A stretch of 64,000 nt of DNA, taken from the NCBI GenBank assembly GCA_900315095.1, contig OMXS01000005.1, positions 62,001 to 126,000 of the forward strand. The letters run 5' to 3'. This document shows, piece after piece, positions 23,351 through 58,898 of the stretch. Source of the stretch: an uncultured Prevotellaceae bacterium (GTDB lineage: Bacteria > Bacteroidota > Bacteroidia > Bacteroidales > Bacteroidaceae). The translations under genes and the position numbers were made by a program. The stretch's first letter is position 1, and the number at the start of each line of letters is the position of its first letter. The notes beneath the pieces are model-generated. The model did no database searches, was not told where the DNA came from, and saw nothing but the letters and a program-made list of their open reading frames with translations.

Positions 23351-24877
23351 TTATTTATTAGGGGTAAGCCGTGAGACGTATTTCACGGGAACTGCCTCTC
23401 CCTTTAAGACATCTGCAAACTCACGTGGTTTTATCGTCACCGCGCCTTTCATAAACTCTGGAATGTTATAGCACTTCATGAACTGTCTGTTGTAATCGGG
23501 ATCACTACATGGCAGTTCAAAAGGCTTTGACCAGTGCCCGTCCTTGTCAACATGAGCGAAGAACGGACGTGTATATTCGCCGTCATTACGGCGACTGCTG
23601 AACACCAGCCACCTGCCGTTGCTCGACCAGGAATGGTAACTCTCCGTGTCATTAGAGTTTATTTCCTTTAACGCACGGGCAGAGTCGGAGCCCTGACCGT
23701 TCAAGTCCATCACCCACAGGTCGGCATCATGGTGCCATATGTGAAACACACCATACTCACCCATGGTGAATACCAGCCATCGTCCATCAGGCGACACCCT
23801 TGGCAGCGTGGCACTCTTTCCCAACGCTGCTGCATCGAACACCAGTTCGCGCTCTCCGAACGTTCTTGTCTCTGGATCAAACGACTTACGGTAGATGTTG
23901 TACTTCACATCCCTTCTGTTTCTTATGATTTGTTTTCCGTGGTCTATAGTGTCGTTATACTCGAAGTGGGCACTGCAATAGTACAGCGTCTTGCCATCTG
24001 GCGCCCAGTAAGGGAACACCTCGAGTTCGGTGGAGTCATTCTCGATGTTGGTCACCTCGTTGCGCTCCACATCATAGGCAATCATGTCGCTCTCCGCGTC
24101 AAACACTTCAATTTTGTTAGGGTCGGTAACTTGGAATATCTGACCGGTTGTGTTTGTAGAATAGACTATCAAGTTGAGCCATGGGTGCCATGTAGGATAC
24201 ACGCCAGCAGAGAGGATGGAGTCGTTCTTCATGTTCACTTTCCTCATCTTGCCATCGTAGGCTATCACCGTTCCGCCCAGATTCTGACGTGCATGGAACT
24301 GAATACGCTCAGGGTTGTATTGCTGATAGTTGTGGCAATTGATGCACTGTCCGCCACTCTCTCCTTCCAGACTACACAGGATGTTGTTATAAATCACGCT
24401 CTCATCGTAGTTTTCCAGACAGCGCTGGCTTATTGTAAGTTCCTCATAACTCACATACGACGGATAGATAAGACGATAACTCAAATAAGGGTCGATGCTG
24501 TCTTTCGACACATGGATATCGAAAGGCTTATACTTTGTCCACTTACCATCGTAGCTGGCATACACTTCCACGCTGATGCTCTTTTCCGTAGCACTTGCCA
24601 CGAGCCGCTGCCAGTCATCACGGTCAGGCTGTATCTTCTCGCCGCCACACAGCAGTTCTTCGCTGCCTGCCGTGAAACGTGCAACCATGTCTTCTGCCTT
24701 TTTATCCATTTCGAATGTCAGCGGAGCCATATTCACCGGCACCGTCACCCCGATGTAGTCGGGATAAATGCGAGGATGCTCGTTAGAAGTAGCATAGTTC
24801 TCTGGCACCTTCGGTCCGCACGCACTCATCAGTACCAGGACCGACGATATAATAATATAAGGAATGTATCTTTTCAT
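23351..24877 (-). CDS. TolB-like beta-propeller lipoprotein with a CxxCH motif (copy A)
   Basis: The ATG at 24877 gives 508 residues with a lipoprotein signal (VLVLMSAC, Cys20). An N-terminal domain of about 150 residues begins with IYPDYIGVTVPVNMAPL and ends in QCINCH (Cys178, Cys181, His182). It is followed by a propeller with PD40/WD40-like blades: GVYPTWHPWLNLIVYSTN, VFPYWAPDGKTLYYCS, LPRVSPDGRWLVFTMG and YHSWSSNGRWLVFSSRR. It aligns along its length with the products at 51369 and 54415. CxxCH is the haem c attachment signature, but a structural or redox role is equally possible. Function unknown. It lies behind a DUF6057-like gene, as do both other full-length copies. Confidence 0.85.
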   Translation of the reverse strand: MKRYIPYIIISSVLVLMSACGPKVPENYATSNEHPRIYPDYIGVTVPVNMAPLTFEMDKKAEDMVARFTAGSEELLCGGEKIQPDRDDWQRLVASATEKSISVEVYASYDGKWTKYKPFDIHVSKDSIDPYLSYRLIYPSYVSYEELTISQRCLENYDESVIYNNILCSLEGESGGQCINCHNYQQYNPERIQFHARQNLGGTVIAYDGKMRKVNMKNDSILSAGVYPTWHPWLNLIVYSTNTTGQIFQVTDPNKIEVFDAESDMIAYDVERNEVTNIENDSTELEVFPYWAPDGKTLYYCSAHFEYNDTIDHGKQIIRNRRDVKYNIYRKSFDPETRTFGERELVFDAAALGKSATLPRVSPDGRWLVFTMGEYGVFHIWHHDADLWVMDLNGQGSDSARALKEINSNDTESYHSWSSNGRWLVFSSRRNDGEYTRPFFAHVDKDGHWSKPFELPCSDPDYNRQFMKCYNIPEFMKGAVTIKPREFADVLKGEAVPVKYVSRLTPNK

Positions 24878-24989
24878 ATCATATATAGTTCTTTTAGTCA
24901 ACTATCGCCGAGCACAACGTTCAATGTTCAAAGTTCCGCTCGACCCAAAGGGGCGCTTTCATAGCGAAGCGGAGAAAGAATGTTCAAAG
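24878..24989. other. Spacer between the DUF6057-like and TolB-like genes of copy A
   Basis: This 112-base spacer contains two GTTCAA-type heptamer traces (24918-24940 and 24979-24986) and a small inverted repeat (CCGCT...AGCGG, 24937-24972). No promoter is convincing, so the two genes are probably co-transcribed. Confidence 0.4.
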
Positions 24990-26909
24990 TCAAATGAACT
25001 TCAAGTCATCCATCAGATAATAATCAAAGAAGAATGTGTCACCGAACCTAGGATACAGTGCCGAACGCACATCGTCAATATCCATGCCGTCGTATTTTGG
25101 CAACTGATCTATAAATTCCTGATAGGTCTTTTTCACCCCCTCGTCGAATGACATATTAAACAGAGCCTTCTTCTCCTCCGTGGTATAGAGATAGGCAGCC
25201 TCCATAAAGTAACGGGGCACTGGCTTCCCAGGATTCAGTTCCAGATATCTCTTGAAACGGTACCAGAAATGGAGACTGCTTTTCGTCCAAAGGGTAGCCA
25301 ACACACACTGCTCTTGGAACTCGGGGTCATCGCAGTCAATCACGGCCAAGTGATTCATAAGGTATTTCTCTGCATATCCGTGATCTGCGCCGACGTTGTC
25401 ATAATGGTGCATCGTGTGCATGATAGGACCTGTCTCTCTGTCTTTGCGCTTCAGTTCCGGCTTCTGCAACTTCTCCATATTATCCGCCCACTCACCATGG
25501 AACAGCGTATGTTTCAGCAGTCGTGTGTATTTAAGCATGGCGTTCACCTCATCATTCATCAGATTGCAACGCGCCATATATTTCAGTTGTTCAACGTGCC
25601 AGCCAAACTCGACGCCAGCCTCCACACACATGTGATGGCAGTCGTTAAACATGCCGTAGTTGTAGTAAAGCATGTTGCCTATCATCATAGACAACTGGAA
25701 AGGAAATGGCGAGGCGGGCTGCTTCGAGCCGTTACGGTACCGATACATCTCCGTGCTCTGTCTTCCCAGTCGCGAGAGTGCCAGGTTTCTCATCACCACC
25801 ACACCCCTCGTAGGCATGTCTTGCTGCTTGTCGGCCTCTGCCAGCACGTCTTCCCAGCGCGTCTGCTCAATAAAGTGTTTCATGGCGGTCTCATGATGGA
25901 AATTCTCATCTTTCATCCACGCTGCATTTACACCGTATACCGTCGCTGCTAATACAATGATGACAATGGCAGTCTGCCACCAGCCACTACACTTCTTGCT
26001 GCTTGACTTTTGCTTCTTTGAATTCTTCTGTGTACGCTTACGCTCAGTGGTTACAGGACTTGGAGCACTCTGCTCCTGCTTGGCAGCGGTGTTCCATTTG
26101 CCGACTGTCAATATTAACAGGCAAGCTCCCAGCAATGCATAAGGAACATAGAACTCTGGATATTCATCTATGATCTTGAAGATGGGCAGTCCTGTCCACC
26201 ACAGATTTGCCATGTTAACCTGGTTGTAAACATACTGGTAACACAACAGCGGTATGGCGACAACCATAAGCGCAGCAAGTATGCAGTCCACCAATGCCTG
26301 CCAGCGGTCTTTATCCAATCGCCAGCACCACAGCCCCATCAGTACTGCCGCTGCTATGGCATAGGTTCCAAAGAGAGGATAACCTGCCGCAACAGTAACA
26401 ACAATCAGCACGCGGCGCCATATTCGGTATGCCGACAGCACGCGGAATGCCCATAGCAACGCTGCAATAACCATAACACCCACGGTGGCATCAAAATACC
26501 AGCCTTTCAGTTTTATGGGATATACCCAGTAGCCCATATCGACATTTGCAATCAACAGCAATGCCACGGGAACCACCAGTAACGAAGCCCAACGCTCGCC
26601 AACCATGAATGCGCGGCGCAGCAGCCACATCAGCAGCAGCCACAAGGCACACAACACAGTCACGCCCAGCACAGGATGGTACAGCAATTGCGTAAGGAAA
26701 CAACCTATGTACACAAGTAGTCCTCCTGGCACTACCATCTGCTGCGAGAAGAACTGCGAAGTGTCAAGAAACAGACTTTGTTCCTGAACCAGCCATAACA
26801 CATGCTTCTCGTAGCTCAGCAACAAACCTGCCACAACAGCAAGCGATATCAGCCATACTATAATCGAAGCATGGTCCTTTAACTTGCCGAGAACTGATTT
26901 AAAAGTCAT
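24990..26909 (-). CDS. DUF6057-like polytopic membrane protein (copy A)
   Basis: This protein of 639 residues has about ten hydrophobic segments in the first half (IIVWLISLAVVAGLLLSY, LLVYIGCFLTQLLYH, LLVVPVALLLIANVDMGYWV and others), a basic hydrophilic linker (KRTQKNSKKQKSSSKK, about 290-310), one more membrane segment (TAIVIIVLAATVYGVNAAW), and a soluble helical C-terminal half with TPR-like character (LALSRLG.., YMARCNLMNDEVNAMLKYTRLLKHTLFHGEWADN). The motif VPGGLLVYIG..LTQ....P.LG is shared with the products at 52856 and 55937. I assign it to the family I know as DUF6057; no function is established. It precedes a TolB-like lipoprotein gene and follows the GH10 xylanase gene. Confidence 0.8.
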   Translation of the reverse strand: MTFKSVLGKLKDHASIIVWLISLAVVAGLLLSYEKHVLWLVQEQSLFLDTSQFFSQQMVVPGGLLVYIGCFLTQLLYHPVLGVTVLCALWLLLMWLLRRAFMVGERWASLLVVPVALLLIANVDMGYWVYPIKLKGWYFDATVGVMVIAALLWAFRVLSAYRIWRRVLIVVTVAAGYPLFGTYAIAAAVLMGLWCWRLDKDRWQALVDCILAALMVVAIPLLCYQYVYNQVNMANLWWTGLPIFKIIDEYPEFYVPYALLGACLLILTVGKWNTAAKQEQSAPSPVTTERKRTQKNSKKQKSSSKKCSGWWQTAIVIIVLAATVYGVNAAWMKDENFHHETAMKHFIEQTRWEDVLAEADKQQDMPTRGVVVMRNLALSRLGRQSTEMYRYRNGSKQPASPFPFQLSMMIGNMLYYNYGMFNDCHHMCVEAGVEFGWHVEQLKYMARCNLMNDEVNAMLKYTRLLKHTLFHGEWADNMEKLQKPELKRKDRETGPIMHTMHHYDNVGADHGYAEKYLMNHLAVIDCDDPEFQEQCVLATLWTKSSLHFWYRFKRYLELNPGKPVPRYFMEAAYLYTTEEKKALFNMSFDEGVKKTYQEFIDQLPKYDGMDIDDVRSALYPRFGDTFFFDYYLMDDLKFI

Positions 26910-47494: not shown

Positions 47495-48433
47495 TTATTT
47501 AAGACGCTCGTCACTCTCAATGCGGCGACTAATCTCACGGGAATCAAGACTGACGGCACGAGAGGTGAAGTCCGGGGTGTTATAAGAGTACATCAGGCGG
47601 CGATAGAATGTCTTGGGGTCGCGCTGTGGCAGCAGGAAAGGTTTGGTGACACGTCCCTTATCGTCAACAGATGCAAAATAAAGGCGGGTGTAAAGACCAT
47701 CGTCGCGACGACTGGTAAAGAGGAACCAATGGCTGTTGGCACTCCAGTTGTGGAAACTCTCGGCACGCTTGCTGTTCACTTCATCGATGCTTCGTGTCTC
47801 GCCTGTCCTAAGGTAGAGCATCCACAGGTCGCTCTCCTCATGCCATATAGAGAAGTACCCATAGTTTGCTCGCGTGTACATTATATATTTACCATCATAC
47901 GAGGGGCGTGGCCATGTGACGCTCTTTTCCTCCTGTGAGGCACGAACGAGAGTGTCCACAGTCTCGCCTATCTTACCTGTCTTTTCGTCAAAAGCCACAC
48001 GGCAGAGGTCATATCGTTCCTTGTCGTAGTCGGTGGGATATACTTGACGCTTGGCTGTAATGAAGTAGAGCCACTTGCCGTCGGGCGAGAACACCGGACA
48101 GTTCTCAGCCCAATATTTTTTCATTATCAGAGTGTCGCTCAGCGTCTGGTTTGTCTGTGTATCATATACGAAGACATCCGATGAGGAGTCGTAAACTTCG
48201 ATGCGCTTATTGCTCGCCATATGGAACATCTGCGATGTCTTATTTGTGGAGAAGGCGCAGTAACGGCCACCTGGATGCCAGTAGGGATATACCATCGAAC
48301 CACCAAGCACTTCGTTCTTCGCCTTCAGAAGCACTTCCTTGCCATCGCGGTGGATTATCGTTGCCCCGTGCTCGCCACGCGCATGGAACACATACTGGTC
48401 GGGATTTGTGCGGTTGAGCCATGGTGCAACCAC
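47495..48433 (-). pseudogene. N-terminally truncated TolB-like beta-propeller gene
   Basis: The frame opens only with a GTG at 48433 and gives 312 residues aligned to the C-terminal propeller of the TolB-like lipoproteins (YPYWHPGGRYCAFSTNKTSQ, CPVFSPDGKWLYFIT, SVTWPRPSYDGKYIMYTR, FHNWSANSHWFLFTSRRDDGLYTR). It lacks the signal peptide, the IYPDY..VT.P.N.APL domain and the CxxCH motif. Homology begins at NRTNPDQYVFHARG, just where CxxCH should be, and the frame upstream meets a TAG about 40 bases before. No promoter points at it, since the promoter there drives the divergent esterase. It is most similar to the chimeric gene at 50479. Either a remnant or a cytosolic fragment; remnant is likelier. 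Confidence 0.75.
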
Positions 48434-48599: not shown

Positions 48600-50393
48600 A
48601 TGAAACGATCTTTTCTTTTAACTATTTACATTTCACTACTGCTCTTTTCACTACAGGCTTCTGCCTATGAGCAATTGTCTATTGACATTAACGTAAATGG
48701 TCAGCAGCGAAACATGGTGGTCTTTATTCCAGATGTACTGCCTGCAAAATCACCGCTGTTCATCGTCACCCATGGTATGAACCAAGACCCGGAATACCAG
48801 TATGGCTCCGACAAGATGTACATGCTGATTGACACCGAGAAGTTCGTCGTAGCATACCTGCGCAGCGATGGCAATACATGGGATACCGGCGGCACGAAAG
48901 ACCAGAACTTCGTCATCAAGGCAATCGATGAATTGGCAAACCTCTATGACATCGACAAAGACCGTGTGTATTGGTCTGGCTTCTCCATGGGTTCGATGCT
49001 CATCCACCATTGCATCGCCAACATGCAAAACAAGATTGCTGCCTTTGCTCCCACGAGCGGCATACAGTTCTCTGAGGAGCCCTGGAACAACTGCAGTAAG
49101 CCCGTAAACCTGCTTGAGGTCATTGCCTACGGCGACGAGACGTTCGGCTACGAGGAATATAATATTCATGGTTACATCGAGAACTACGCCTTGCACGACA
49201 ATCACACCCAGTACTCGAAAACCATAGGCTACAAGCCCACCAGTGGCAGTTGGTTTGACGGTGACCTGGAGAAATGGACGGGAGGTCCAAACGGTGGCGA
49301 GGTGTGGCTCTATTCATATAACAACGGCGGCCACTGGCCCAATGATATTAATCCACGTCTCATCTGGAACTTCTGCAAACGCTTCACGCTTAATCAGCCC
49401 AAGGCGAGAATCACTCAGCCAGCAGGAGAGACTACCTATTTATATATGGGACCTGATGGCGAGGCCACATTCCCCGACATCACCATAGAAGCCACCGCTA
49501 CGGCTACCGTTGGTGAGGTAGAGAAGGTAGAGTTCTATGATGGCAACACTCTATTAGAGACACTTACAGCCCAGCCTTACACCGCAACGCTGACTGCCCC
49601 ACAAGCCGGACAACATGAGTTGCGCGTCGTGGTGACCGACACCAATGGAAAGAAGGGAGAGAGTTCGTGCGTGGTGAACTGCGTCGCTTCTACCAACTAC
49701 GACATGATTCAGACGTTCACCACCGAGGGCATTGTGCCACAGAACTGGTACGTGTGCAACGGCAAGATTAAACGTGTGGGCGGCGGACTTCCCTATTCCA
49801 ATGGTTGTCGCCTTCTGCACTTCACGAACACGAAACGAGGCTTCGAATATGGACTCCTCGTGCAGAACCCTGGTGGCAAGGAAAAAAAAGCATGGGCTAA
49901 ATTTGGCGACAATGCCGCACGTTCGTACATGACACTGCATGCAGGACATTATTCTATCAAAAGCAGGGTATGTAACTGGGACCAGCCAGATTTTACATCA
50001 GTCACCTACACCATAGAGGACCTCAACGGACAGGAAATGGCATCCAAGACTTTCACGCCCACCGTTAATATCGGTGGCGACACAAGCAACAGTTTCTCTG
50101 GCGGTAGGGGACAGACTTTCGATTTCGACATTCCTGAAACAGGTGAATATGTCTTCACTGTTTATACCGATGCCGTAAAGAATGCCGACTTCGTACTTGG
50201 AATGTCCACTATACAGGCCAAGTCGTTCGTTACAACAGGTATCAAGGAGATAAACACCAACTCTGAAAAAGTACAGTCAAAGAAGAGCGGATGCTATGAC
50301 CTCAGCGGTCGCAAGGTATCAGAAAGCAATACAACGAATGGTCTGAAACCAGGCATTTACATCATCAACGGACGCAAAACCGTCATCCGATAA
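48600..50393 (+). CDS. Secreted CE1/PHB-depolymerase-like esterase with Ig-like domain and sorting tail
   Basis: This 597-residue protein has a signal peptide (to SAY, residue 23). An alpha/beta-hydrolase domain of the LpqC/polyhydroxybutyrate depolymerase type, used by many feruloyl and acetyl xylan esterases, spans 25-265: FIVTHGMNQDPEYQYG, nucleophile Ser129 in SGFSMGS, Asp179 in AYGDE and His245 in NGGHWP. An Ig-like domain follows (about 270-365; VEKVEFYDGNTLLETLTAQPYT), then a jelly-roll-like region, and the tail CYDLSGRKV..PGIYIINGRKTVIR shared with other enzymes of the locus. It is the only plus-strand gene between 21.3 and 64 kb, flanked on both sides by broken TolB-like genes. Feruloyl or acetyl esterase activity on xylan is inferred from context. 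Confidence 0.85.
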   Translation: MKRSFLLTIYISLLLFSLQASAYEQLSIDINVNGQQRNMVVFIPDVLPAKSPLFIVTHGMNQDPEYQYGSDKMYMLIDTEKFVVAYLRSDGNTWDTGGTKDQNFVIKAIDELANLYDIDKDRVYWSGFSMGSMLIHHCIANMQNKIAAFAPTSGIQFSEEPWNNCSKPVNLLEVIAYGDETFGYEEYNIHGYIENYALHDNHTQYSKTIGYKPTSGSWFDGDLEKWTGGPNGGEVWLYSYNNGGHWPNDINPRLIWNFCKRFTLNQPKARITQPAGETTYLYMGPDGEATFPDITIEATATATVGEVEKVEFYDGNTLLETLTAQPYTATLTAPQAGQHELRVVVTDTNGKKGESSCVVNCVASTNYDMIQTFTTEGIVPQNWYVCNGKIKRVGGGLPYSNGCRLLHFTNTKRGFEYGLLVQNPGGKEKKAWAKFGDNAARSYMTLHAGHYSIKSRVCNWDQPDFTSVTYTIEDLNGQEMASKTFTPTVNIGGDTSNSFSGGRGQTFDFDIPETGEYVFTVYTDAVKNADFVLGMSTIQAKSFVTTGIKEINTNSEKVQSKKSGCYDLSGRKVSESNTTNGLKPGIYIINGRKTVIR

Positions 50394-50478: not shown

Positions 50479-51363
50479 TTATTTAGTACTTACACGTTCC
50501 TCACTCTCGATTCTCCTGCTCATATCACGGGAATCGAGGTCCAAGGGGCGTGTGGCAAAGTCTGGAGTGTTATACGAATAGAGCAACCGGCGATAATACT
50601 GCTTGGGGTTGTGCTGTGGTAATAGGAAAGGCTTGGTGGCCTTACCATTCTCATCCAGGCAGGAGAAGTAGATACGGGTATAGAGACCATCGTCACGGCG
50701 ACTGGTGAAAAGGAACCAGCGGCTGCCAGTGCTCCAGTTGTGCAGGCTCTCAGTCTGAGGGCTGTTCACGGTGTCCATAGGACGCGTCTCGCCAGTCTTC
50801 ATGTCGAGTAGCCACAGGTCAGCCTCGGGATGCCATACCGAGAAATAGCCAAAGTCAGTCTGGGTGTACATGATGTAGCGTCCGTCGTAAGAGGGACGGG
50901 GCCACGTAACGCTCTTGCCTGTGACAGTAGTATTGATGAGGGTATCAACCTGCTCGCCCAGACGTCCTGTATGGGCATTAAAGGCGACGCGACAGAGACT
51001 GTAACACTCTTTGTCATAGTCGGTGGGATAGAACTGCCGCTTGTCCTTGATATTTGGGAAGAACTGTCGAAGCAGTTTGGAAGAAAGCTTCTGGGCGAGA
51101 ACGAAAAGAATGGCATAGGCCAAAGCCCCGTTGACAGGATTCAGGAAAAACTGTGCAATACATTCGCCCAAATACTGAGCCATTCCGCCTGGCAGCACAA
51201 GGCGCTCTGTCAGATAGTCGCAGTTCCATAGGAACAATACTGACATCTCCCTTGCCACTGGTATGAATGGATAGCCGAATAGCCAGAAACAGAACACCAC
51301 GATGGCCAAAAGAGCCACCGCTACATGTTCCAAGTATCGGAATATGATGGCTTTTATACTCAT
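50479..51363 (-). CDS. In-frame chimera: DUF6057-like N-terminus fused to a TolB-like C-terminus
   Basis: This ORF of 294 residues has an ATG six bases after the TolB-like gene at 51369. Residues 1 to about 105 are the N-terminus of a DUF6057-like membrane protein: two membrane segments and LPGGMAQYLGECIAQFFLNPVNG, which matches the conserved motif of the full-length copies. From KRQFYPTDYDKE (about 107) to the end it is the last 185 residues of a TolB-like propeller, closely similar to the remnant at 47495 (YPTDYDKE.Y.LCRVAF, SVTWPRPSYDGRYIMYT, FLFTSRRDDGLYTRIYF). An internal deletion spanning the end of a DUF6057 gene and the start of the next TolB-like gene explains this exactly. Whether the product is stable is unknown; the intact frame may be chance or recent. 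Confidence 0.82.
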   Translation of the reverse strand: MSIKAIIFRYLEHVAVALLAIVVFCFWLFGYPFIPVAREMSVLFLWNCDYLTERLVLPGGMAQYLGECIAQFFLNPVNGALAYAILFVLAQKLSSKLLRQFFPNIKDKRQFYPTDYDKECYSLCRVAFNAHTGRLGEQVDTLINTTVTGKSVTWPRPSYDGRYIMYTQTDFGYFSVWHPEADLWLLDMKTGETRPMDTVNSPQTESLHNWSTGSRWFLFTSRRDDGLYTRIYFSCLDENGKATKPFLLPQHNPKQYYRRLLYSYNTPDFATRPLDLDSRDMSRRIESEERVSTK

Positions 51364-51368
51364 AAGCT

Positions 51369-52859
51369 TTACTTGCGCACGCCTATGTCCTTGCGGTACT
51401 CATCGTTGATGACACTACTAGCCTTATTACCGTCAAAGCGAGTTGGACCAATGATGAAATCGGGCACATTGAAGGAAAGGAAACGGTCGCGATAGAAACG
51501 GCGCGGGTTTCGCTGCGGCAACATAAAAGCTTTGGTAACATTACCCTTGGCATCTATGTGACAAAAATAGGGCCGTGTGAAGAGACCATCGTCACGTCGT
51601 GAGCTGAGCACCATCCAACGTGAGTTCGTGCTCCAGTTGTGGAACGATTCGGTATCTTTAGAGTTAGCCGCAGTCATGGGACGGCTCTCCCCCGTAGAGA
51701 GGTCGAGCAGATAGAGGTCGGCCTCGTGATGCCAAATGCTGAATTGCCCGTAGTCGGAGAGAGTGTAACAGAGGTAACGCCCGTCGTAGGAGGGACGAGG
51801 GAAAGACACCGACTTATGTTGAGCCTCAGCATCGATAATGGTTTCTATACTGTCACCAAAGGTGCCTGTTGCGGGATCGAAATCGACGCGACAGAGGTTA
51901 TAGCGTATTGAGTCAAGCTGATGACTGCCCTCAGGCAGAGCGCGTGCTGAACAGAAATAAAGCGAACGACCGTCAGCCGAGAAAACGGGGAATGTCTCAT
52001 ATATAGAGTCATTTTTGAGAAGGGGCGAGAGCAACAGCTCATTTTTCTCAACGTCATAGACCTGAAGGTCGGAGGCTGTATCAAAGACCTCGATGCGGTT
52101 GTGGTTGGCACTATGGAACAACTGGTTCGTAGTATTTGTAGAATAAGCGATATATCGTCCCGAAGGATGCCAGTATGGATAGACGCAAAGGCCGAGAGTC
52201 TGGTCGGTCTTAGTGTTGTAAGCGGTGACAGGGCCATAGTTTTGGCGCAGCAGCGTGGCACCATGAGGTCCACGGATATGAAGACTCATGTCAGCAGGGT
52301 TACCACGGTTGAAGCTATGGCAGTTGACACATCCCTCGAACTGGGTGTTCTCAATCAACGGACGCTCATCGAATGAGGAGAGGTCGCGTTCATAAATGCC
52401 CATCTTACTCCACACCTCGTAACCAGGCTCTATAAGACGATAACAGATGCCGTAGTCAATGCTGTCAGGACTGACATATATTGAAAAAGGACGATAGGTG
52501 TGCCAGCCGTCGTCATACTTCGCCGAGACAGTAATGCTGAGCGAGCCACCACGGTTCTGCCCGAGCATATCTTTCCAGTCGTCAATGTCGAAATCGACAG
52601 ACTCTTTTCCTTGGCTATGCAGGTTGTTTCCGTGACTATCTGTTATGACCGCATCGATACATGAAGCCTTCTCATCTGCCATACAGAAGTCGAGAGGAGC
52701 AATGTTCACGGGTATAGTGACCCCGATGTAATCGGGATAGATATTAGGCTGAGCCGTCTCTTGCTTGGCATCGCTGACAGTCTCTGTACAAGCTGCCACG
52801 AGGTAAGAGGCAAGGAGCAAGAGGCAAGAGGCAAGAAGTATATGTAGAGTTCTTTTCAT
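51369..52859 (-). CDS. TolB-like beta-propeller lipoprotein with a CxxCH motif (copy B)
   Basis: This protein of 496 residues has lipobox YLVAAC (Cys24). NIYPDYIGVTIPVNIAPLDF begins the N-terminal domain; GCVNCH (Cys177, Cys180, His181) lies at its end, at nearly the same distance from the lipid Cys as in copy A. Propeller blades follow: GLCVYPYWHPSGRYIAYSTN, FPVFSADGRSLYFCS, SVSFPRPSYDGRYLCYT and FHNWSTNSRWMVLSSRRDDGLFTR. Residues 7-18 of the signal peptide are encoded by five AAGAGGC-like heptamers (52805-52839). The gene overlaps the end of the DUF6057-like gene at 52856 by four bases, so the two are translationally coupled. Confidence 0.86.
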   Translation of the reverse strand: MKRTLHILLASCLLLLASYLVAACTETVSDAKQETAQPNIYPDYIGVTIPVNIAPLDFCMADEKASCIDAVITDSHGNNLHSQGKESVDFDIDDWKDMLGQNRGGSLSITVSAKYDDGWHTYRPFSIYVSPDSIDYGICYRLIEPGYEVWSKMGIYERDLSSFDERPLIENTQFEGCVNCHSFNRGNPADMSLHIRGPHGATLLRQNYGPVTAYNTKTDQTLGLCVYPYWHPSGRYIAYSTNTTNQLFHSANHNRIEVFDTASDLQVYDVEKNELLLSPLLKNDSIYETFPVFSADGRSLYFCSARALPEGSHQLDSIRYNLCRVDFDPATGTFGDSIETIIDAEAQHKSVSFPRPSYDGRYLCYTLSDYGQFSIWHHEADLYLLDLSTGESRPMTAANSKDTESFHNWSTNSRWMVLSSRRDDGLFTRPYFCHIDAKGNVTKAFMLPQRNPRRFYRDRFLSFNVPDFIIGPTRFDGNKASSVINDEYRKDIGVRK

Positions 52860-54394
52860 TGCTTGGTGGAAGTGTTTAATAGTAATTTATTATATCTTTC
52901 ACGGTCATTTGTCAGTATATAGTAGGCCACCAGATATTGATATGCCAAACTATTGTCTTTGTTGCTGAAGTAAAGGCTTTCGAGCATATCAGGCGTCACA
53001 TGGTCGCTGAAAAAAGCATTATCTTTATAGACAGACTTGCGCAGGTGTCCGTATTCGGGATGCTTGGCTATCGCCTCTTCATTACCCAACAGTTGTAATG
53101 TCTCATTCGCCCAGTCACTATAGAAAAGTGTCTTCTGCAGGGCCGTGAGATATTTTCGTGCCACCTCATAATTGCCGTTTATCAGGTTGGTCTGAGCCAA
53201 TCGTTTGTAGCATCGTCCACTCTTCTGGAAGTCAAGAATCGCTTCCTGGGCCTCGAACACCGTTCGCTGTGCGACATTTATCATACCCAACTGATAGAAG
53301 GCCTCGGCAGTAGGCAGAGGACTGGTAGCATCGCTTTGGACATCGGGTAAGAGACCCAAGATGCCGTTCTGGTTAAATTCAAACAGGTGGTCAGCGAGCA
53401 GACCATGCATACCCAAGGCAAGATTCTGCACCGTCACTCCAATCTGATTGTTAGGTTTTTCAGCGTTGATGGTGGCGAGTATGCGGTTCCATTGCTGGTG
53501 GCGCGCCATGAAGTCATATTGCATCACCTTCTCTGCCTTGAGATTGCTGTATTTCCATACAGCACAGAGACCACAGAGGAAACAGAGGGCACAGAGTATA
53601 AGGGTTTTGAGGTTTTGAGACTTTGATGTTGCTGGTTTATTACAGAAACGGGCAATGAGTGCAAGGACGAAGACTGACAGGGCAGCAGACCATAGCAGGA
53701 CAGGAATCACCGTCGGGTAACGATAGTAATGTATGCCTGTCCATAGACTGCGGGGGGATACAGGAAGATGTGTTGACAGAATAACTATCATTATTCCCAA
53801 CAGTACAATCGCTCCATAATACCATATAGAGTATTTATGTCGTGGAATCTGCAAAAGAAAGAACACCACACATACAGGACCCACTATCCAATAGAGTATA
53901 GGAACGGCGGCAAAGAGAAGAATGAGCCGCAGCCAGGGGGTTGGATGTTTGGGAGATTGGTCGTCTGGTCGTTCAGGAACTAGGGCAAAGAGGCATGAGG
54001 CGAGAAGAGTGAGCAAGACAGCCCAGACGCCGCCCAACAGCGCATTCTCGTCGAGCAAGAAAAGCCAAAGCAGAAACGAAGGGATGAAAGAAGCCCCCTC
54101 CCAACCTCCCCCCAAGGGGGAGAAGAGCCGCAGGACGAGGAGCTGTATGGCAGAGAGTAGGAGTGCGATGATCAGAGCGCCCACCCAGGCATAAAGGAAA
54201 AACTGCGTGCAGAAGCGTCCCAGCAGGTCGGCAACGCCGCCTGGCAGCCTGACGATGTCCCACACGTATGTGCTATCGAAAAGGAAAAGCTGATACTGCT
54301 CCTGATAATGCAGATGATGCGGATAGGCCAGCCCGAAAAAGAGAAGGACCGCCACACCGAAAAGGAGAGTATATATACCACGCAGGTTCTTCAT
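52856..54394 (-). CDS. DUF6057-like polytopic membrane protein (copy B)
   Basis: This 512-residue protein has about ten membrane segments to about residue 290 and then a helical TPR-like soluble half (YKRLAQTNLINGNYEVARKYLTALQKTLFYSDWAN). The shared motif reads RLPGGVADLLGRFCTQFFLYAWVG. Two stretches look like repeat insertions in coding DNA: LFSPLGGGWEGASF at about residue 90-103 comes from the GC-rich palindromic word at 54091-54127, and LCALCFLCGLCAV at about 266-278 comes from four 9-bp CACAGAG(nn) units at 53563-53598. The gene is followed with a four-base overlap by copy B of the TolB-like lipoprotein. No function is known for the family. Confidence 0.8.
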   Translation of the reverse strand: MKNLRGIYTLLFGVAVLLFFGLAYPHHLHYQEQYQLFLFDSTYVWDIVRLPGGVADLLGRFCTQFFLYAWVGALIIALLLSAIQLLVLRLFSPLGGGWEGASFIPSFLLWLFLLDENALLGGVWAVLLTLLASCLFALVPERPDDQSPKHPTPWLRLILLFAAVPILYWIVGPVCVVFFLLQIPRHKYSIWYYGAIVLLGIMIVILSTHLPVSPRSLWTGIHYYRYPTVIPVLLWSAALSVFVLALIARFCNKPATSKSQNLKTLILCALCFLCGLCAVWKYSNLKAEKVMQYDFMARHQQWNRILATINAEKPNNQIGVTVQNLALGMHGLLADHLFEFNQNGILGLLPDVQSDATSPLPTAEAFYQLGMINVAQRTVFEAQEAILDFQKSGRCYKRLAQTNLINGNYEVARKYLTALQKTLFYSDWANETLQLLGNEEAIAKHPEYGHLRKSVYKDNAFFSDHVTPDMLESLYFSNKDNSLAYQYLVAYYILTNDRERYNKLLLNTSTKQ

Positions 54395-54414
54395 CTCTTA
54401 ATTCTTAACTATTA

Positions 54415-55929
54415 TTACTTGTCAAATACCTTACTGAATTCATCTACAGTGATCTTGACTGGCTCAACCATGAACTCTGGACGGTTGTAACTCTTCAAAA
54501 GACTGATATGCAACTCGGGGTCTTCCTGCGGCATGAGGAATGCCTTTTCCACCTTCCCATTGTTGAAATAGGCGAAATAGACACGGCTGTAGTTGTCATC
54601 GTCACGGCGACTGGCAAGCATAATCCAATGTCCGTTGCTCGACCACGAGGGATAACTGTCAGAATAGTCCTTGCTGTTCAGTCTCGAGAGGTCAATGGGC
54701 GAAGAGGTTTCCCAAGTGAGGGCAGTACCGGCATACTTGTCTATAGGGATGCAAACGATGTCGGCATCATGGTGTCTGCTGTGAAAACAGCCATACTGAC
54801 CCAGAGCAAACAACAGATAGTGGCCATCGGGGCTGATGCGTGGCAACGTGACGCTCTTATTGGCGGAGGCTGCATCATAGACGAGTTCCTCCTCGCCGAA
54901 GTTGTGCGTCTTCAGGTCGAACGAACGTCGAACGAGATTATATTGTATCTTTTGATAGGTGGTTCTGATATCTTTATCGCGCATTTCCTCAGGAAGCGGC
55001 ACCGACTTGCAGTAATAGAGGTACTTGCCATCGGGCGACCAAGTAGGATACACCTCCAAGAGCGTGGAATCGTTGCTGACAATGCTTACCGAGTCGGTCT
55101 CAACATCATAGAGTATCATATCACTCGCCAAATCATAAACCTCAATTTTGTTAGGATTTGACGTGTGGAATGCCTGTCGTGTCAGATTGGTAGAGAAGGC
55201 TACCAACTTGGCAGTAGGATGCCATGACGGATAGACACCACCGGAAATGGTATAGTCGCGCTTCATATTGACTTTCGAGACCTTGCCATCGTTCACAATA
55301 ACGGTACCTGCATTGGATAGACGCACATGAAAGAGCATGTTGTCAGTCTTGTAGTTCTGATAACTGTGGCAGTTAATGCACTGTCCCTTTTCCCTATCAT
55401 TCATTGTAATCTCGTTGTTGAAAATCTGTGTTTCCTCAAACGAGATGAGGTTGCGCTGGGCAATCTCCATGAAGGTCCATGCAACATACGACGGTTCTAT
55501 GAGACGATACGACACATATTCATCAATAGGCTCTTTAGCAACATGTATCTCAAACGGACTGAACAACAGCCATTTGCCTTCTTTCTGGCCCCATACCTCT
55601 ACCTTGATACTCTTACCCTTCGAGGCATTGAGCATGTCGTGCCATTCATCCTCTTGTATCTGAACCTTCACACCGTTGCCGTAGGTCTGCTGCTTGCCAT
55701 CGGGAGTAGTGAGACGTGCCACGCACTCTTCGTACTGGTCAACTGGGAGCATGAAATTTAGTGGTGCGATGTTGCAAGGCACGGTGACATCACAATAATC
55801 AGGGAAGATTGGTGGCAGCACTGAAGACGCGGAGGCGTCGGAGGGCACAGAGGGATGATTTGCGCACGATGAGAGGAACATCACGGCAAAGCCCAGCAAT
55901 ACAATGTAGGAGGATATAAATCTTTTCAT
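54415..55929 (-). CDS. TolB-like beta-propeller lipoprotein with a CxxCH motif (copy C)
   Basis: The ATG at 55929 (MKRFISSYIV..) gives 504 residues with lipobox VMFLSSC (Cys22); the frame is open to 55968 but the signal peptide fixes the start. IFPDYCDVTVPCNIAPLNF starts the N-terminal domain, which ends in QCINCH (Cys184, Cys187, His188). Blades: GVYPSWHPTAKLVAFSTN, VYPTWSPDGKYLYYC, LPRISPDGHYLLFALG and YPSWSSNGHWIMLASRRDDDNYSR. It is closer to copy A in several blades (CINCH, GVYP.WHP, ATLPR/VTLPR) than to copy B. It begins eight bases after the DUF6057-like gene at 55937. Confidence 0.86.
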   Translation of the reverse strand: MKRFISSYIVLLGFAVMFLSSCANHPSVPSDASASSVLPPIFPDYCDVTVPCNIAPLNFMLPVDQYEECVARLTTPDGKQQTYGNGVKVQIQEDEWHDMLNASKGKSIKVEVWGQKEGKWLLFSPFEIHVAKEPIDEYVSYRLIEPSYVAWTFMEIAQRNLISFEETQIFNNEITMNDREKGQCINCHSYQNYKTDNMLFHVRLSNAGTVIVNDGKVSKVNMKRDYTISGGVYPSWHPTAKLVAFSTNLTRQAFHTSNPNKIEVYDLASDMILYDVETDSVSIVSNDSTLLEVYPTWSPDGKYLYYCKSVPLPEEMRDKDIRTTYQKIQYNLVRRSFDLKTHNFGEEELVYDAASANKSVTLPRISPDGHYLLFALGQYGCFHSRHHDADIVCIPIDKYAGTALTWETSSPIDLSRLNSKDYSDSYPSWSSNGHWIMLASRRDDDNYSRVYFAYFNNGKVEKAFLMPQEDPELHISLLKSYNRPEFMVEPVKITVDEFSKVFDK

Positions 55930-55936
55930 TGTTTTC

Positions 55937-57748
55937 TTACGATTGAACTTCATGACCAATATTTCCATTATTTATAATATAAGACTTTCTTCCGAAAATG
56001 TTGTACCACCAATAGGTATCTCCATATTCTTTACGCATCTCTTCACCAACCGATTTAAGTGTCATACCAGGTATTGCATAGGTTTTCAAGGTTGCCCAAA
56101 ACTGTTTGTAACGCTCATAAACAGACCGTTCGACAGGGAGCATCATACGTTTCTCTTCTGGAGCCTTGTCCATGTACAGAATATAGGCCTCCATGGCATG
56201 CAGAGGAAATTGCTCATCAAGATGCAACTTCACATAATTGCGTAGGGATGGCCAGAAGCGACGGGAGTCGCAACGTATCATGGAATAGAACAAAGCCTGT
56301 TCTGAAGCCAACTTGCTGTCAGATTCGTACCAGAGACTAATACTGTTGACAATATAACTATCGCTGTTCTCAACGCCACTGAGCTCATCAGGATAGCATT
56401 TCTGCAGTTCCTTAACCTTTGCTGAGACCGGTGCCGGTTGCCAATTTCCGTAAAACGGACGATGATGCAGTATGGTGGTATAGCGTTCTACCAATTTCTT
56501 ATCTCCTGTAGCCAAGGCACATCTGGTAAGCATCTTCAAGTAGAAGGGCGAGAAACCCGCCTGTATGGCGTTCTCAAAACTCAGGCGGATGGATTCATTC
56601 ACCATGCCGTAATTATAATATACCAGAGGCGATGCTATGTCCAAAAGGGTGACGTGGAGCGTATCTGGATTGTTAATATTTACATCATCGTTGCCCAACT
56701 TGAATGAACGGTCGAGTAAACCACCTTCATTCATCAGTGCAATATTCTTAAGAAATACCATCGTGCTGGTTGGTTTCTTGTTCTCTTCAGACATACGAAG
56801 AACCTCCTTCCAGTTGTCGTCGTAAGCATAGCGTACCATGCGCATTTCGTTAATGTAATTACGATCGTAGTACATGAGCGACCAGGTAAAGACAATACCT
56901 GCAAAGACACATAGGACCGGCACAAGTATACTTTGAACTTTGAACTTTAAACTTTGAACTTTAGTTGGCAGATATTTGCTAAACAACGCAAAGAGCAAAG
57001 AAGCGCCACCAAGCACCCAAAACGGGACTGAAAGACGTCCAGTACTGTCGCTTGGCGTTTCAAAACGAGGCAGTCCTGCCAGCATGACATCATCGAATTT
57101 CAGGTTCGAATATAACTGGGTATGCCAGATGCTGGCGGTAAAGACAAGCAAGACAATGCCTATAAGTTCGCGCCACGTCAGTTTCTCGGCAACCACCAGA
57201 CAAAGCATGAAAAGCAAGGCGAACCATCCTAATATTGGATAGATGCAAAAGCCCAGCACATACCATAATAGATGCCATTTGCGTGAAGTACTTCGTGCTG
57301 CCCATAAAAGCAAAAGCATGACGAGATAGCCTACCGACTGAGAGAACCAATAGCCTCTAATCGTGGATATATAAATCCAATATCCCAAATCAACAACCGA
57401 TGTAAGCAGACAGGCGATTGGCAGGAGCATCAGTGCAGAAGTACTCGCCTGTAACCTGAAAGCCTTGGTTCCCACATAGAATATGAGGGTCCAAATAACT
57501 ATCATTACACTAGCACCTAACAACGGCCTATAGCATAGTTGTGTGAGCCATGCTCCCACGTACTGCATCAGACCGAAGGGCTTCGACATAAGGGTATGGA
57601 AGAATGGCGCTCCAAAGATGAACTCGGAACGGTCGTGTGCCGTATAAAACACCTCCCGATTAATATATAGTATATATACCGCAAATGCTATGAAAGCCAG
57701 CAGGCTCACATAGAGAATGATCTTAGATACTTTGTTGTTATTAATCAT
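55937..57748 (-). CDS. DUF6057-like polytopic membrane protein (copy C)
   Basis: The ATG at 57748 (MINNNKVSK..) gives 603 residues. The first 60% has about ten membrane segments with the shared motif SKPFGLMQYVGAWLTQLCYRPLLG and DLGYWIYISTIRGYW, which is also seen in copy A (DMGYWVYPIKLKGWY). The C-terminal half is soluble and helical (LKMLTRCALATGDKKLVERYTTILHHRPFYGNW). Between the halves, the linker KVQSLKFKVQS is encoded by four CTTTGAA-type heptamers (56931-56958), the same heptamer that fills the xusD-xusE spacer. It begins 19 bases after the ATPase gene and is followed by TolB-like copy C, so all probably share one transcript. Confidence 0.8.
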   Translation of the reverse strand: MINNNKVSKIILYVSLLAFIAFAVYILYINREVFYTAHDRSEFIFGAPFFHTLMSKPFGLMQYVGAWLTQLCYRPLLGASVMIVIWTLIFYVGTKAFRLQASTSALMLLPIACLLTSVVDLGYWIYISTIRGYWFSQSVGYLVMLLLLWAARSTSRKWHLLWYVLGFCIYPILGWFALLFMLCLVVAEKLTWRELIGIVLLVFTASIWHTQLYSNLKFDDVMLAGLPRFETPSDSTGRLSVPFWVLGGASLLFALFSKYLPTKVQSLKFKVQSILVPVLCVFAGIVFTWSLMYYDRNYINEMRMVRYAYDDNWKEVLRMSEENKKPTSTMVFLKNIALMNEGGLLDRSFKLGNDDVNINNPDTLHVTLLDIASPLVYYNYGMVNESIRLSFENAIQAGFSPFYLKMLTRCALATGDKKLVERYTTILHHRPFYGNWQPAPVSAKVKELQKCYPDELSGVENSDSYIVNSISLWYESDSKLASEQALFYSMIRCDSRRFWPSLRNYVKLHLDEQFPLHAMEAYILYMDKAPEEKRMMLPVERSVYERYKQFWATLKTYAIPGMTLKSVGEEMRKEYGDTYWWYNIFGRKSYIINNGNIGHEVQS

Positions 57749-57767: not shown

Positions 57768-58898
57768 CTATATAAATCTTTTCCTAAACCACAATGCAAA
57801 AACAGGATCCGTAACATTGAGTTGGCGTAGTTCTGAATATATCAGATCGCGTTCAATAAGTGCTTTACGCAAGCGTACAATGTTTGAAGGAGCCCCCAAA
57901 TCGAACTGAGAGCGGACACGTTTTTCATTAAACCCAGAGTGTACACCAGAAACGATAGCCCTAAGCATATTCATCTGATAACTGGACAATGGCTCTATCT
58001 GTTGCATATACAGAGCCTCATTAGTACTTATCAATTCTGCCACTGCCTGCGGCATCATATCTTCAGTTACGGTACCGCCTTGAGGCAGAAGGTTGAGAAG
58101 TATTGAAGAGAGGTGCTGTACGTACGACGGATAGTTATCTACAGTCTCGCATATCCGCGCTACCATTTGCTCAGAAATATGCTTACCTGCCGCCTCAAAA
58201 TGACTTATGATATAGTCAATCCAATCGTTAGTTGGTATTTTCTGTAACCAAAGCAAGTCACCAAACTGATAGAAAGGCATACTGCGATTCAGAAATATAT
58301 CACTCATCATATGCCGTTTACTGCCATACAAGCAATACGATGTGTAGTGATGGTGTTGCCAAACCGAACGAAGTCTGGCCTGGACTTCCTTTGTATTCTC
58401 AAATTCACCTATTTGCTGAAACTCATCTATGCATACCACAACATGGCGTTTCTTCTTTTGGGCAATGATTTCTACAACATTAAGAATCTCCTCTGGAGAA
58501 TGCGTTTCAGGAGTTATGCCTAAAGAAACACTAATTTCAGACATAGGGTCAACAGGAATACCAATTTTGGGAGTAAGACGAGCCAGAAAGCTGCGAGCTT
58601 CATCCATCCATAGCTGAATCTTAGATGCTGTTTGCTTCAACACAGCCACGGCCAAGGCGTTATAAAATTCATATTCCGACTTGCATCCAAATATATCCAA
58701 GCGTACCGTAATAACATCACTACTGGCCAGTTGTTGACAAACATGGTCAACCAACGATGTTTTCCCCCATCGTCTAGGAGAAATCAATATAGAATTAACT
58801 CCGCCTTCGAAGTTGGCTTTCAGACGACGTGTTTCCTCAATTCTACCAGTAAAATTGTAGTCTGTGACAGCTATTCCATATACAAAACTTTTCTCCAT
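57768..58898 (-). CDS. AAA-type ATPase of the archaeal ATPase_2/STAND-like group
   Basis: This protein of 376 residues has no signal peptide. Walker A is SPRRWGKTSL (about 40-49), Walker B is HVVVCIDEFQQI (about 153-164), with a sensor-like YCLYGSKRHMM and a C-terminal winged-helix-like part (LRAIVSGVHSGFNEKRVRSQFDLGAPSNIVRLRKALIERDLI). The family is multicopy in Bacteroidota and its function is unknown; roles in DNA or protein remodelling are only suggested. It has its own consensus promoter and stands directly upstream of the DUF6057/TolB-like array (19 bases), so it may be the first gene of that operon or an independent gene with read-through. Confidence 0.85.
   Translation of the reverse strand: MEKSFVYGIAVTDYNFTGRIEETRRLKANFEGGVNSILISPRRWGKTSLVDHVCQQLASSDVITVRLDIFGCKSEYEFYNALAVAVLKQTASKIQLWMDEARSFLARLTPKIGIPVDPMSEISVSLGITPETHSPEEILNVVEIIAQKKKRHVVVCIDEFQQIGEFENTKEVQARLRSVWQHHHYTSYCLYGSKRHMMSDIFLNRSMPFYQFGDLLWLQKIPTNDWIDYIISHFEAAGKHISEQMVARICETVDNYPSYVQHLSSILLNLLPQGGTVTEDMMPQAVAELISTNEALYMQQIEPLSSYQMNMLRAIVSGVHSGFNEKRVRSQFDLGAPSNIVRLRKALIERDLIYSELRQLNVTDPVFALWFRKRFI

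Follow-up and report, generated by a model that had tools for sequence, protein, structure and literature searches.

The 64,000-nt window analysed here (the whole stretch taken from contig OMXS01000005.1, in a genome of 58 contigs labelled G000) carries three intact pairs of genes, each encoding a membrane protein of the DUF6057 family (PF19529) and, downstream, a lipoprotein in which a CxNCH motif precedes a beta propeller. We are nearly certain that the DUF6057 protein and the lipoprotein constitute a co-inherited unit. The reading that we favour, with a probability of about 0.45, is that of a co-inherited envelope module in which the CxNCH motif of the lipoprotein carries haem c attached by the cytochrome synthase CcsBA, the lipoprotein thus being a redox or sensing protein served by the DUF6057 partner; within that module, the site may hold a metal in place of haem c.

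Three intact gene pairs

All three pairs lie on the minus strand (23351-26909, 51369-54394 and 54415-57748). The six open reading frames (ORFs) are where the first-pass annotation had placed them, and the spacings between partners are likewise as it gave them: 112 bases in pair 1, 7 in pair 2 (assuming that the lipoprotein starts at MKRF) and -4 in pair 3. The components are:

24990..26909, minus strand: DUF6057 membrane protein P0007, pair 1 (PF19529, E = 7.8e-84; AlphaFold2 pLDDT, the predicted local distance difference test score, 92.8)
23351..24901, minus strand: CxNCH propeller lipoprotein P0006, pair 1 (PD40, E = 1e-18; AlphaFold2 pLDDT 92.4; likely start 24877, MKRYIP)
24332..24346, minus strand: CINCH motif, pair 1
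55937..57748, minus strand: DUF6057 membrane protein P0005, pair 2 (PF19529, E = 3.8e-68; ORF open to 57817)
54415..55968, minus strand: CxNCH propeller lipoprotein P0004, pair 2 (PD40, E = 2.5e-12; likely start 55929, MKRF)
55366..55380, minus strand: CINCH motif, pair 2
52856..54394, minus strand: DUF6057 membrane protein P0003, pair 3 (PF19529, E = 2.1e-141)
51369..52859, minus strand: CxNCH propeller lipoprotein P0002, pair 3 (PD40, E = 4.8e-10)
52317..52331, minus strand: CVNCH motif, pair 3

The membrane proteins score 283 (P0007), 231 (P0005) and 473 (P0003) bits against the PF19529 profile, for which the curated cut-off is 29.8. The three lipoproteins are mutually 35-45% identical, a likeness beyond chance given their E values of 1e-107 to 1e-151. 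Two further intact pairs are arranged tail to tail on another contig of the same genome (C46; locus L016), which brings the genome total to five intact pairs and two remnants.

Adjacency and correlated divergence

Among 568 lipoprotein relatives that were confirmed, we took the loci of the best 80 and scored adjacency in them with a limit of 400 bases. A DUF6057 gene lies directly upstream of 81 of the 84 lipoprotein segments in these near-relative loci, and a lipoprotein downstream of 81 of their 82 DUF6057 genes; the misses are a 41-residue fragment (L126), a pair spaced by more than 400 bases (L144) and a locus where no DUF6057 was found (L122). Because these loci are near relatives, the pairing was also counted from the DUF6057 side. 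The lipoprotein is directly downstream in 31 out of 31 loci picked by strong DUF6057 matches (the top matches: L020, L021 and L046-L074). In 41 longer sampled loci, a lipoprotein follows directly downstream of 51 of 56 DUF6057 genes, and 51 of 55 lipoproteins have a DUF6057 gene directly upstream. Among the five exceptions, the next gene is another DUF6057 (L250), the partners stand apart on opposite strands (L255) or in reverse order (L272), and in two cases (L256 and L262) no lipoprotein was found within the stretch. In the last two loci, the DUF6057 gene (L256:8183-9997; L262:8622-10433) stands beside an ORF of 670 amino acids, which in L256 resembles, by eye, a glycogen branching enzyme.

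The protein distances of the partners correlate across 130 pairs (rho 0.79). Within the 16 genomes or loci that have two or more pairs (39 pairs in all), rho is 0.67; when partners were swapped inside each genome, the mean rho was 0.19 and none of 1000 swaps reached 0.67. The pair duplicates and diverges as one unit. The defined two-protein unit proposed in the first-pass annotation is therefore borne out: far from being rare outside this genome, adjacency is the rule elsewhere (81/84 and 51/56), and CxNCH, rather than being lost from other homologues, is kept in all 82 full-length lipoproteins of the 80 near-relative loci.

The lipoprotein: motif, fold and location

The PD40 propeller repeat is the sole Pfam match over cut-off in the three window lipoproteins, and it was found in each of 75 lipoproteins scanned. 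The invariant C-I/V-N-C-H reported earlier is indeed present in all three (residues 186-190, 197-201 and 177-181 of the translated ORFs). It also occurs, as CxNCH, in 170 of 170 segments from 215 loci, with both outside families included; these segments cover profile positions 100-300 and are free of exact duplicates, while overlapping fetches of one gene remain, so that their number is not a number of genes. The N of the motif is invariant and the first x is I, V, M, L or F. Three histidines, H231, H382 and H415, are conserved at 99-100% (75 rows). The lipobox Cys is present in 75/75 rows, so that the CxxCH stands in an exported protein, as it does in c-type cytochromes. In a subfamily of the lipoprotein (L016:10597-12129; L096:13205-14629), CMNCH is kept and the second His, normally part of an FHxR motif, is replaced by Tyr (MMYxR).

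The AlphaFold2 model (mean pLDDT 92.4) has an N-terminal beta domain followed by strands that we read as a propeller. Among the matches listed, Foldseek against the PDB gave generic propellers only, with a TM-score to the query of at most 0.38.

Surface lipoproteins of the phylum Bacteroidota carry an acidic export signal. No acidic residue occurs at positions +2 to +5 in 71 of 75 lipoproteins, while the SusD proteins of the sampled loci (17 with a readable signal, out of 19) each have one or two there. The missing signal points the lipoprotein to the periplasm, where the module is likely placed.

The DUF6057 membrane protein

In the AlphaFold2 model of P0007 (mean pLDDT 92.8), we read about nine membrane helices, and the C-terminal half is made of helices. 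When charged residues were counted over 78 sequences, the N-terminus came out as inside and the C-terminal half as outside; the clearest signals are loop 270-306, with 5.6 Lys plus Arg, against 0.9 in loop 226-250, and the second outer loop is less clear (1.8). Foldseek against the PDB gave a best E of 0.2, to TPR proteins. The PGG motif had been described as common to all three membrane proteins, but P0005 has PFG; in 83 diverse members, each G of PGG is kept in 82-84% and the Q of TQ in 90%.

Co-variation with CcsA and a chorismatase/Rid-like protein

Among 121 genomes of the family that are at least 90% complete, the lipoprotein occurs in 89 (E up to 1e-20) and a chorismatase/Rid-like protein, here RID, in 90 (E up to 1e-25). 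A CcsA domain over cut-off is found in 109, or 110 once G306 is added, a lipoprotein-bearing genome in which the first half of CcsBA runs into a contig end and which we counted as CcsA present. The lipoprotein and RID are both present in 85 genomes and both absent from 27, with four having the lipoprotein only and five RID only. CcsA is present in 88 of 89 lipoprotein-bearing genomes versus 22 of the 32 others (p = 5e-6); with G306 counted as CcsA-negative, the figures are 87/89 versus 22/32 (p = 2e-5). Since related genomes are not independent, the labels were permuted within genera. The concordance between lipoprotein and RID is then 112/121 versus 96.5 expected (p = 5e-5), that between lipoprotein and CcsA 98 versus 90.1 (p = 0.0015) and that between RID and CcsA 97 versus 90.3 (p = 0.01).

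RID and the synthase also meet on the chromosome. In 43 of the 90 family genomes that have RID, it lies at most 4 kb from a CcsA-domain gene on the same strand, and RID and CcsBA stand together in 13 out of 20 hand-picked RID loci, one of which (L297) was missed by the domain search. A typical locus reads porin, imelysin/M75-like protein, di-haem cytochrome, in some cases a further porin and a CxxCH protein, and finally RID with CcsBA, whose mutual order varies (some of these names were given by eye); in L284, L286, L292 and L296, the RID gene is situated inside such di-haem cytochrome/imelysin-like/CcsBA loci. In gene content, these loci resemble BT2473-82 of B. thetaiotaomicron, a CcsA/M75/thiol-oxidoreductase locus that is reported to be strongly induced by iron starvation (PMC10434189); the comparison concerns the RID-CcsBA loci and does not bear on the pair.

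RID also occurs near the pair itself. Within five genes of the 56 DUF6057 genes in the 41 longer loci, we counted SusD 22 times, SusC 20 times, a DUF4369 protein 19 times and RID 11 times, the last at most two genes away in 9/56; as the search profiles were built from five of the loci each, these counts may be low. RID adjoins the pair in both outside families (L244 and L245), and the link between them may therefore be old. A check for cytochrome c maturation genes, suggested at the outset, was positive: the genome of the window has a fused ResB-CcsA synthase, adjoining a di-CxxCH protein. The company that the pair keeps across genomes hints at a covalently bound, periplasm-facing haem on one of its two proteins.

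What the CxNCH site may hold

We favour haem because the lipoprotein co-occurs with the CcsA synthase. In the proposed arrangement, the DUF6057 protein would sit in the inner membrane with some nine helices, its helical TPR-like C-terminal half facing the periplasm, and the lipoprotein, with its N-terminal beta domain, CxNCH site and propeller, would probably face the periplasm too. The fused synthase CcsBA would attach haem c at CxNCH. The product, with one haem (or a haem plus a metal), would serve in redox chemistry or sensing, and DUF6057 might hold or serve it at the inner membrane. The module would be deployed repeatedly near SusC/SusD importers, accompanied by the RID enzyme. Beyond the computed pairing, co-evolution, CxNCH conservation, topology signals and co-variation with RID and CcsA, we thus infer physical contact between the partners, the haem and any redox or sensing function.

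Several observations weigh against haem. In the usual haem c site, CxxCH occupies a helix or a turn, and the two Cys point to the same side. Here, the motif is modelled within a beta strand (177-184), followed by a short turn and a strand (191-198) carrying FHxR, and its setting is therefore unlike the usual one; judging from strand geometry, the two Cys should face opposite sides. This prediction, made without haem, has a confidence of about 70 over residues 171-180 and 95 over 181-190. The second His, that of FHxR, is absent from 8 of the 170 segments (five genes), and Foldseek against the PDB found no structural relative of either protein that indicates function. Haem b in the DUF6057 protein was considered and rejected, no His being conserved at 50% or more in the 83 diverse members. 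The genomic association also has gaps. CcsA occurs in 22/32 genomes that lack the lipoprotein, and CcsBA likely has other substrates; G333, a draft of 140 contigs, has four lipoprotein matches and RID and no CcsA match; in the genome of the window, RID (contig C56) and CcsBA (C42) are not beside a pair. In a second set of 44 genomes, CcsA is present in 15/15 that bear the lipoprotein, both outside families included, versus 23/29 without a strong DUF6057 match, a difference that does not reach significance by itself (p = 0.08); these 29 had been picked for a weak DUF6057 score and not by a lipoprotein search. With both sets pooled, CcsA is present in 103/104 lipoprotein-bearing genomes versus 45/61 others. 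With the genome company for it and the fold model against it, we give haem c at CxNCH roughly even odds.

A metal- or thiol-dependent envelope module, in which CxNCH is a metal or thiol site and not a haem site, is possible and deserves serious attention. The Cys and His of the motif, together with the His of FHxR, would be ligands of zinc, copper or iron; alternatively, the Cys would act as a redox thiol. In the confident model, strand 177-184, which holds CxNCH, pairs with strand 191-198, which holds FHxR; this suits such a site, as does the near-invariance of H231, H382 and H415. DUF4369 proteins, a family often joined to thioredoxin-like proteins, accompany 19 of the 56 DUF6057 genes. Against a metal or thiol stand the within-genus co-variation with CcsA (p = 0.0015), the tie between RID and CcsBA loci and the exact C-x-x-C-H order in every full copy.

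Quite unlikely, in our estimation, is a structural or carrier pair without a cofactor role, aiding SusC/SusD-type complexes or polysaccharide machinery, in which CxNCH would only stabilise the fold. Protein contacts are often made through propeller and TPR-like domains, and SusD and SusC are found within five genes of 22/56 and 20/56 DUF6057 genes. Yet CxNCH (82/82) is conserved above most of the protein, of the two partners that co-vary, one is a metabolic enzyme and the other a cytochrome synthase, and many pairs adjoin housekeeping genes.

A role of DUF6057 as a GT-C-type glycosyltransferase, its TPR-like half lying in the periplasm and the lipoprotein being its acceptor or helper, is highly improbable: the long first periplasmic loop, the short helices after the first membrane helix and the periplasmic helical C-terminal half are a GT-C-like layout, but no Asp or Glu of the membrane half reaches 70% conservation in the 83 diverse members, including the first periplasmic loop, where GT-C enzymes need a conserved acidic residue, the best Foldseek hits are the TPR proteins at E 0.2, and no GT-C family is among the 25 listed of 41 weak Pfam families (78 members). 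An hhalign comparison with one GT-C-like protein was empty, as was the control with an FtsW-like protein. In the near-relative set, E34 of DUF6057 is nearly invariant.

Returning to the haem module, we can extend it to a new beta-hairpin haem c lipoprotein, matured by CcsBA and docked on DUF6057, which would be fed by, or sense, a chorismate-derived aromatic made by RID and couple redox state or iron supply to nutrient import across the outer membrane, having been multiplied through tandem copying along SusC/D operons; in this full form, the proposal is unlikely.

Remnants, neighbours and distribution

Two decayed copies, both without CxNCH, accompany the intact pairs in the window; the first belongs to the interval singled out in the first-pass annotation (50479-57748), and the second is placed shortly beyond it:

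50479..51363, minus strand: chimeric remnant without CxxCH, the DUF6057 N-terminus (about 100 amino acids) fused in frame to a lipoprotein C-terminus
47495..48433, minus strand: lipoprotein C-terminal remnant starting beyond the place of CxNCH

Residues 11-103 of the chimera match PF19529 (E = 7.8e-20, 72 bits), residues 121-290 are 54% identical to P0002, and the lipoprotein parts of the two remnants are 67% identical over 187 amino acids. Between the remnants lies a gene on the plus strand (48600-50393) that resembles an esterase by eye, and this arrangement of two decayed lipoprotein copies around it suggests tandem duplication with deletion and insertion. An ORF of 376 amino acids (57768-58898, ATPase-like by eye) precedes pair 2 closely in the same orientation and overlaps the longest P0005 ORF.

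The neighbouring genes had raised the question of a special link to xylan. Such a link is not supported: in the near-relative loci, 49 neighbours were counted upstream on the same strand, and the most frequent Pfam families among them, methionyl-tRNA synthetase and GH10, occur three times each, so that the link looks incidental. Xylan is one context among many, and a xylan-specific role was rejected, the neighbours being too varied.

Of 400 genomes sampled from the family of the window's own genome, 360 have DUF6057 above cut-off. In a draw of 296 genomes from the phylum, which contains few of that family, three have it above cut-off, own genome included; the other two (G039 and G078) belong to different families and have full pairs. 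The pair is frequent in gut and rumen Bacteroidaceae. The window's own genome is taken to be that of a rumen-type Prevotella of the GTDB family Bacteroidaceae: many among the best 80 of the 568 lipoprotein relatives name the ruminant gut, and the closest named relative among the matches listed, from Prevotella sp. UBA4330, is 95% identical. In the other 21 of the 24 phylum-draw genomes with any match, DUF6057 matches are weak and below cut-off; nine were inspected, and all were, by eye, other proteins (six FtsW-like, one RND-like, one TPR-like and one glycosyltransferase-like). Short DUF6057-like ORFs of 323-405 amino acids (L216-L223 and L225-L232) correspond to the middle and the C-terminal portion of family members. 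A search of five genomes that have them (G326, G401, G443, G447 and G349) found no lipoprotein; such ORFs also occur in G542, G586 and G530, the search having covered the other five only.

Comparison with known systems

PD40 repeats are common to TolB/PD40 proteins and our lipoproteins, which also match the TolB profile and structures weakly. The three lipoproteins score 27-35 bits against TIGR02800, where the cut-off for TolB is 343, and to our knowledge TolB has no counterpart to CxNCH, to the N-terminal domain of the lipoprotein or to the DUF6057 partner.

RID resembles the FkbO/Hyg5 chorismatases (profile matches to 5ag3_A, E = 1e-27, and to FKBO, 4bps_A, E = 1e-23). The Cys and Glu of its C-terminal CRxxLLvE, which have a role in chorismatases, align with 5ag3_A, and C324, R325, L329 and E331 are invariant (12 rows). 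Four RID proteins nevertheless score 44-62 bits, below the family cut-off of 325 (TIGR04444), and RID also matches Rid deaminases.

A precedent for a CxxCH haem in an unusual fold, by analogy only, is haem alpha-I of the hydrazine synthase alpha subunit, which is reported to be held in a fold unlike known cytochromes, with the His binding zinc and a Tyr binding haem (PMC12607021). Hydrazine synthase was not found among the PDB sequence matches of the lipoprotein or the Foldseek matches listed. If haem is indeed bound here, gut and rumen Bacteroidaceae would possess a c-type protein that had not been suspected; it would often be linked to nutrient import, and its CxxCH would have an unusual setting.

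In the openly licensed papers searched, which are no proof, we found DUF6057 not named and the pair, motif and context not described. The three membrane proteins are members of DUF6057, for which Pfam gives no function or partner. The fixed lipoprotein partner is a new addition to this family and, with the invariant motif and two co-varying genes (CcsBA and the chorismatase-like enzyme), makes DUF6057 a testable system, in which haem, redox and iron are the first assay targets in view of the co-variation with CcsBA and RID.

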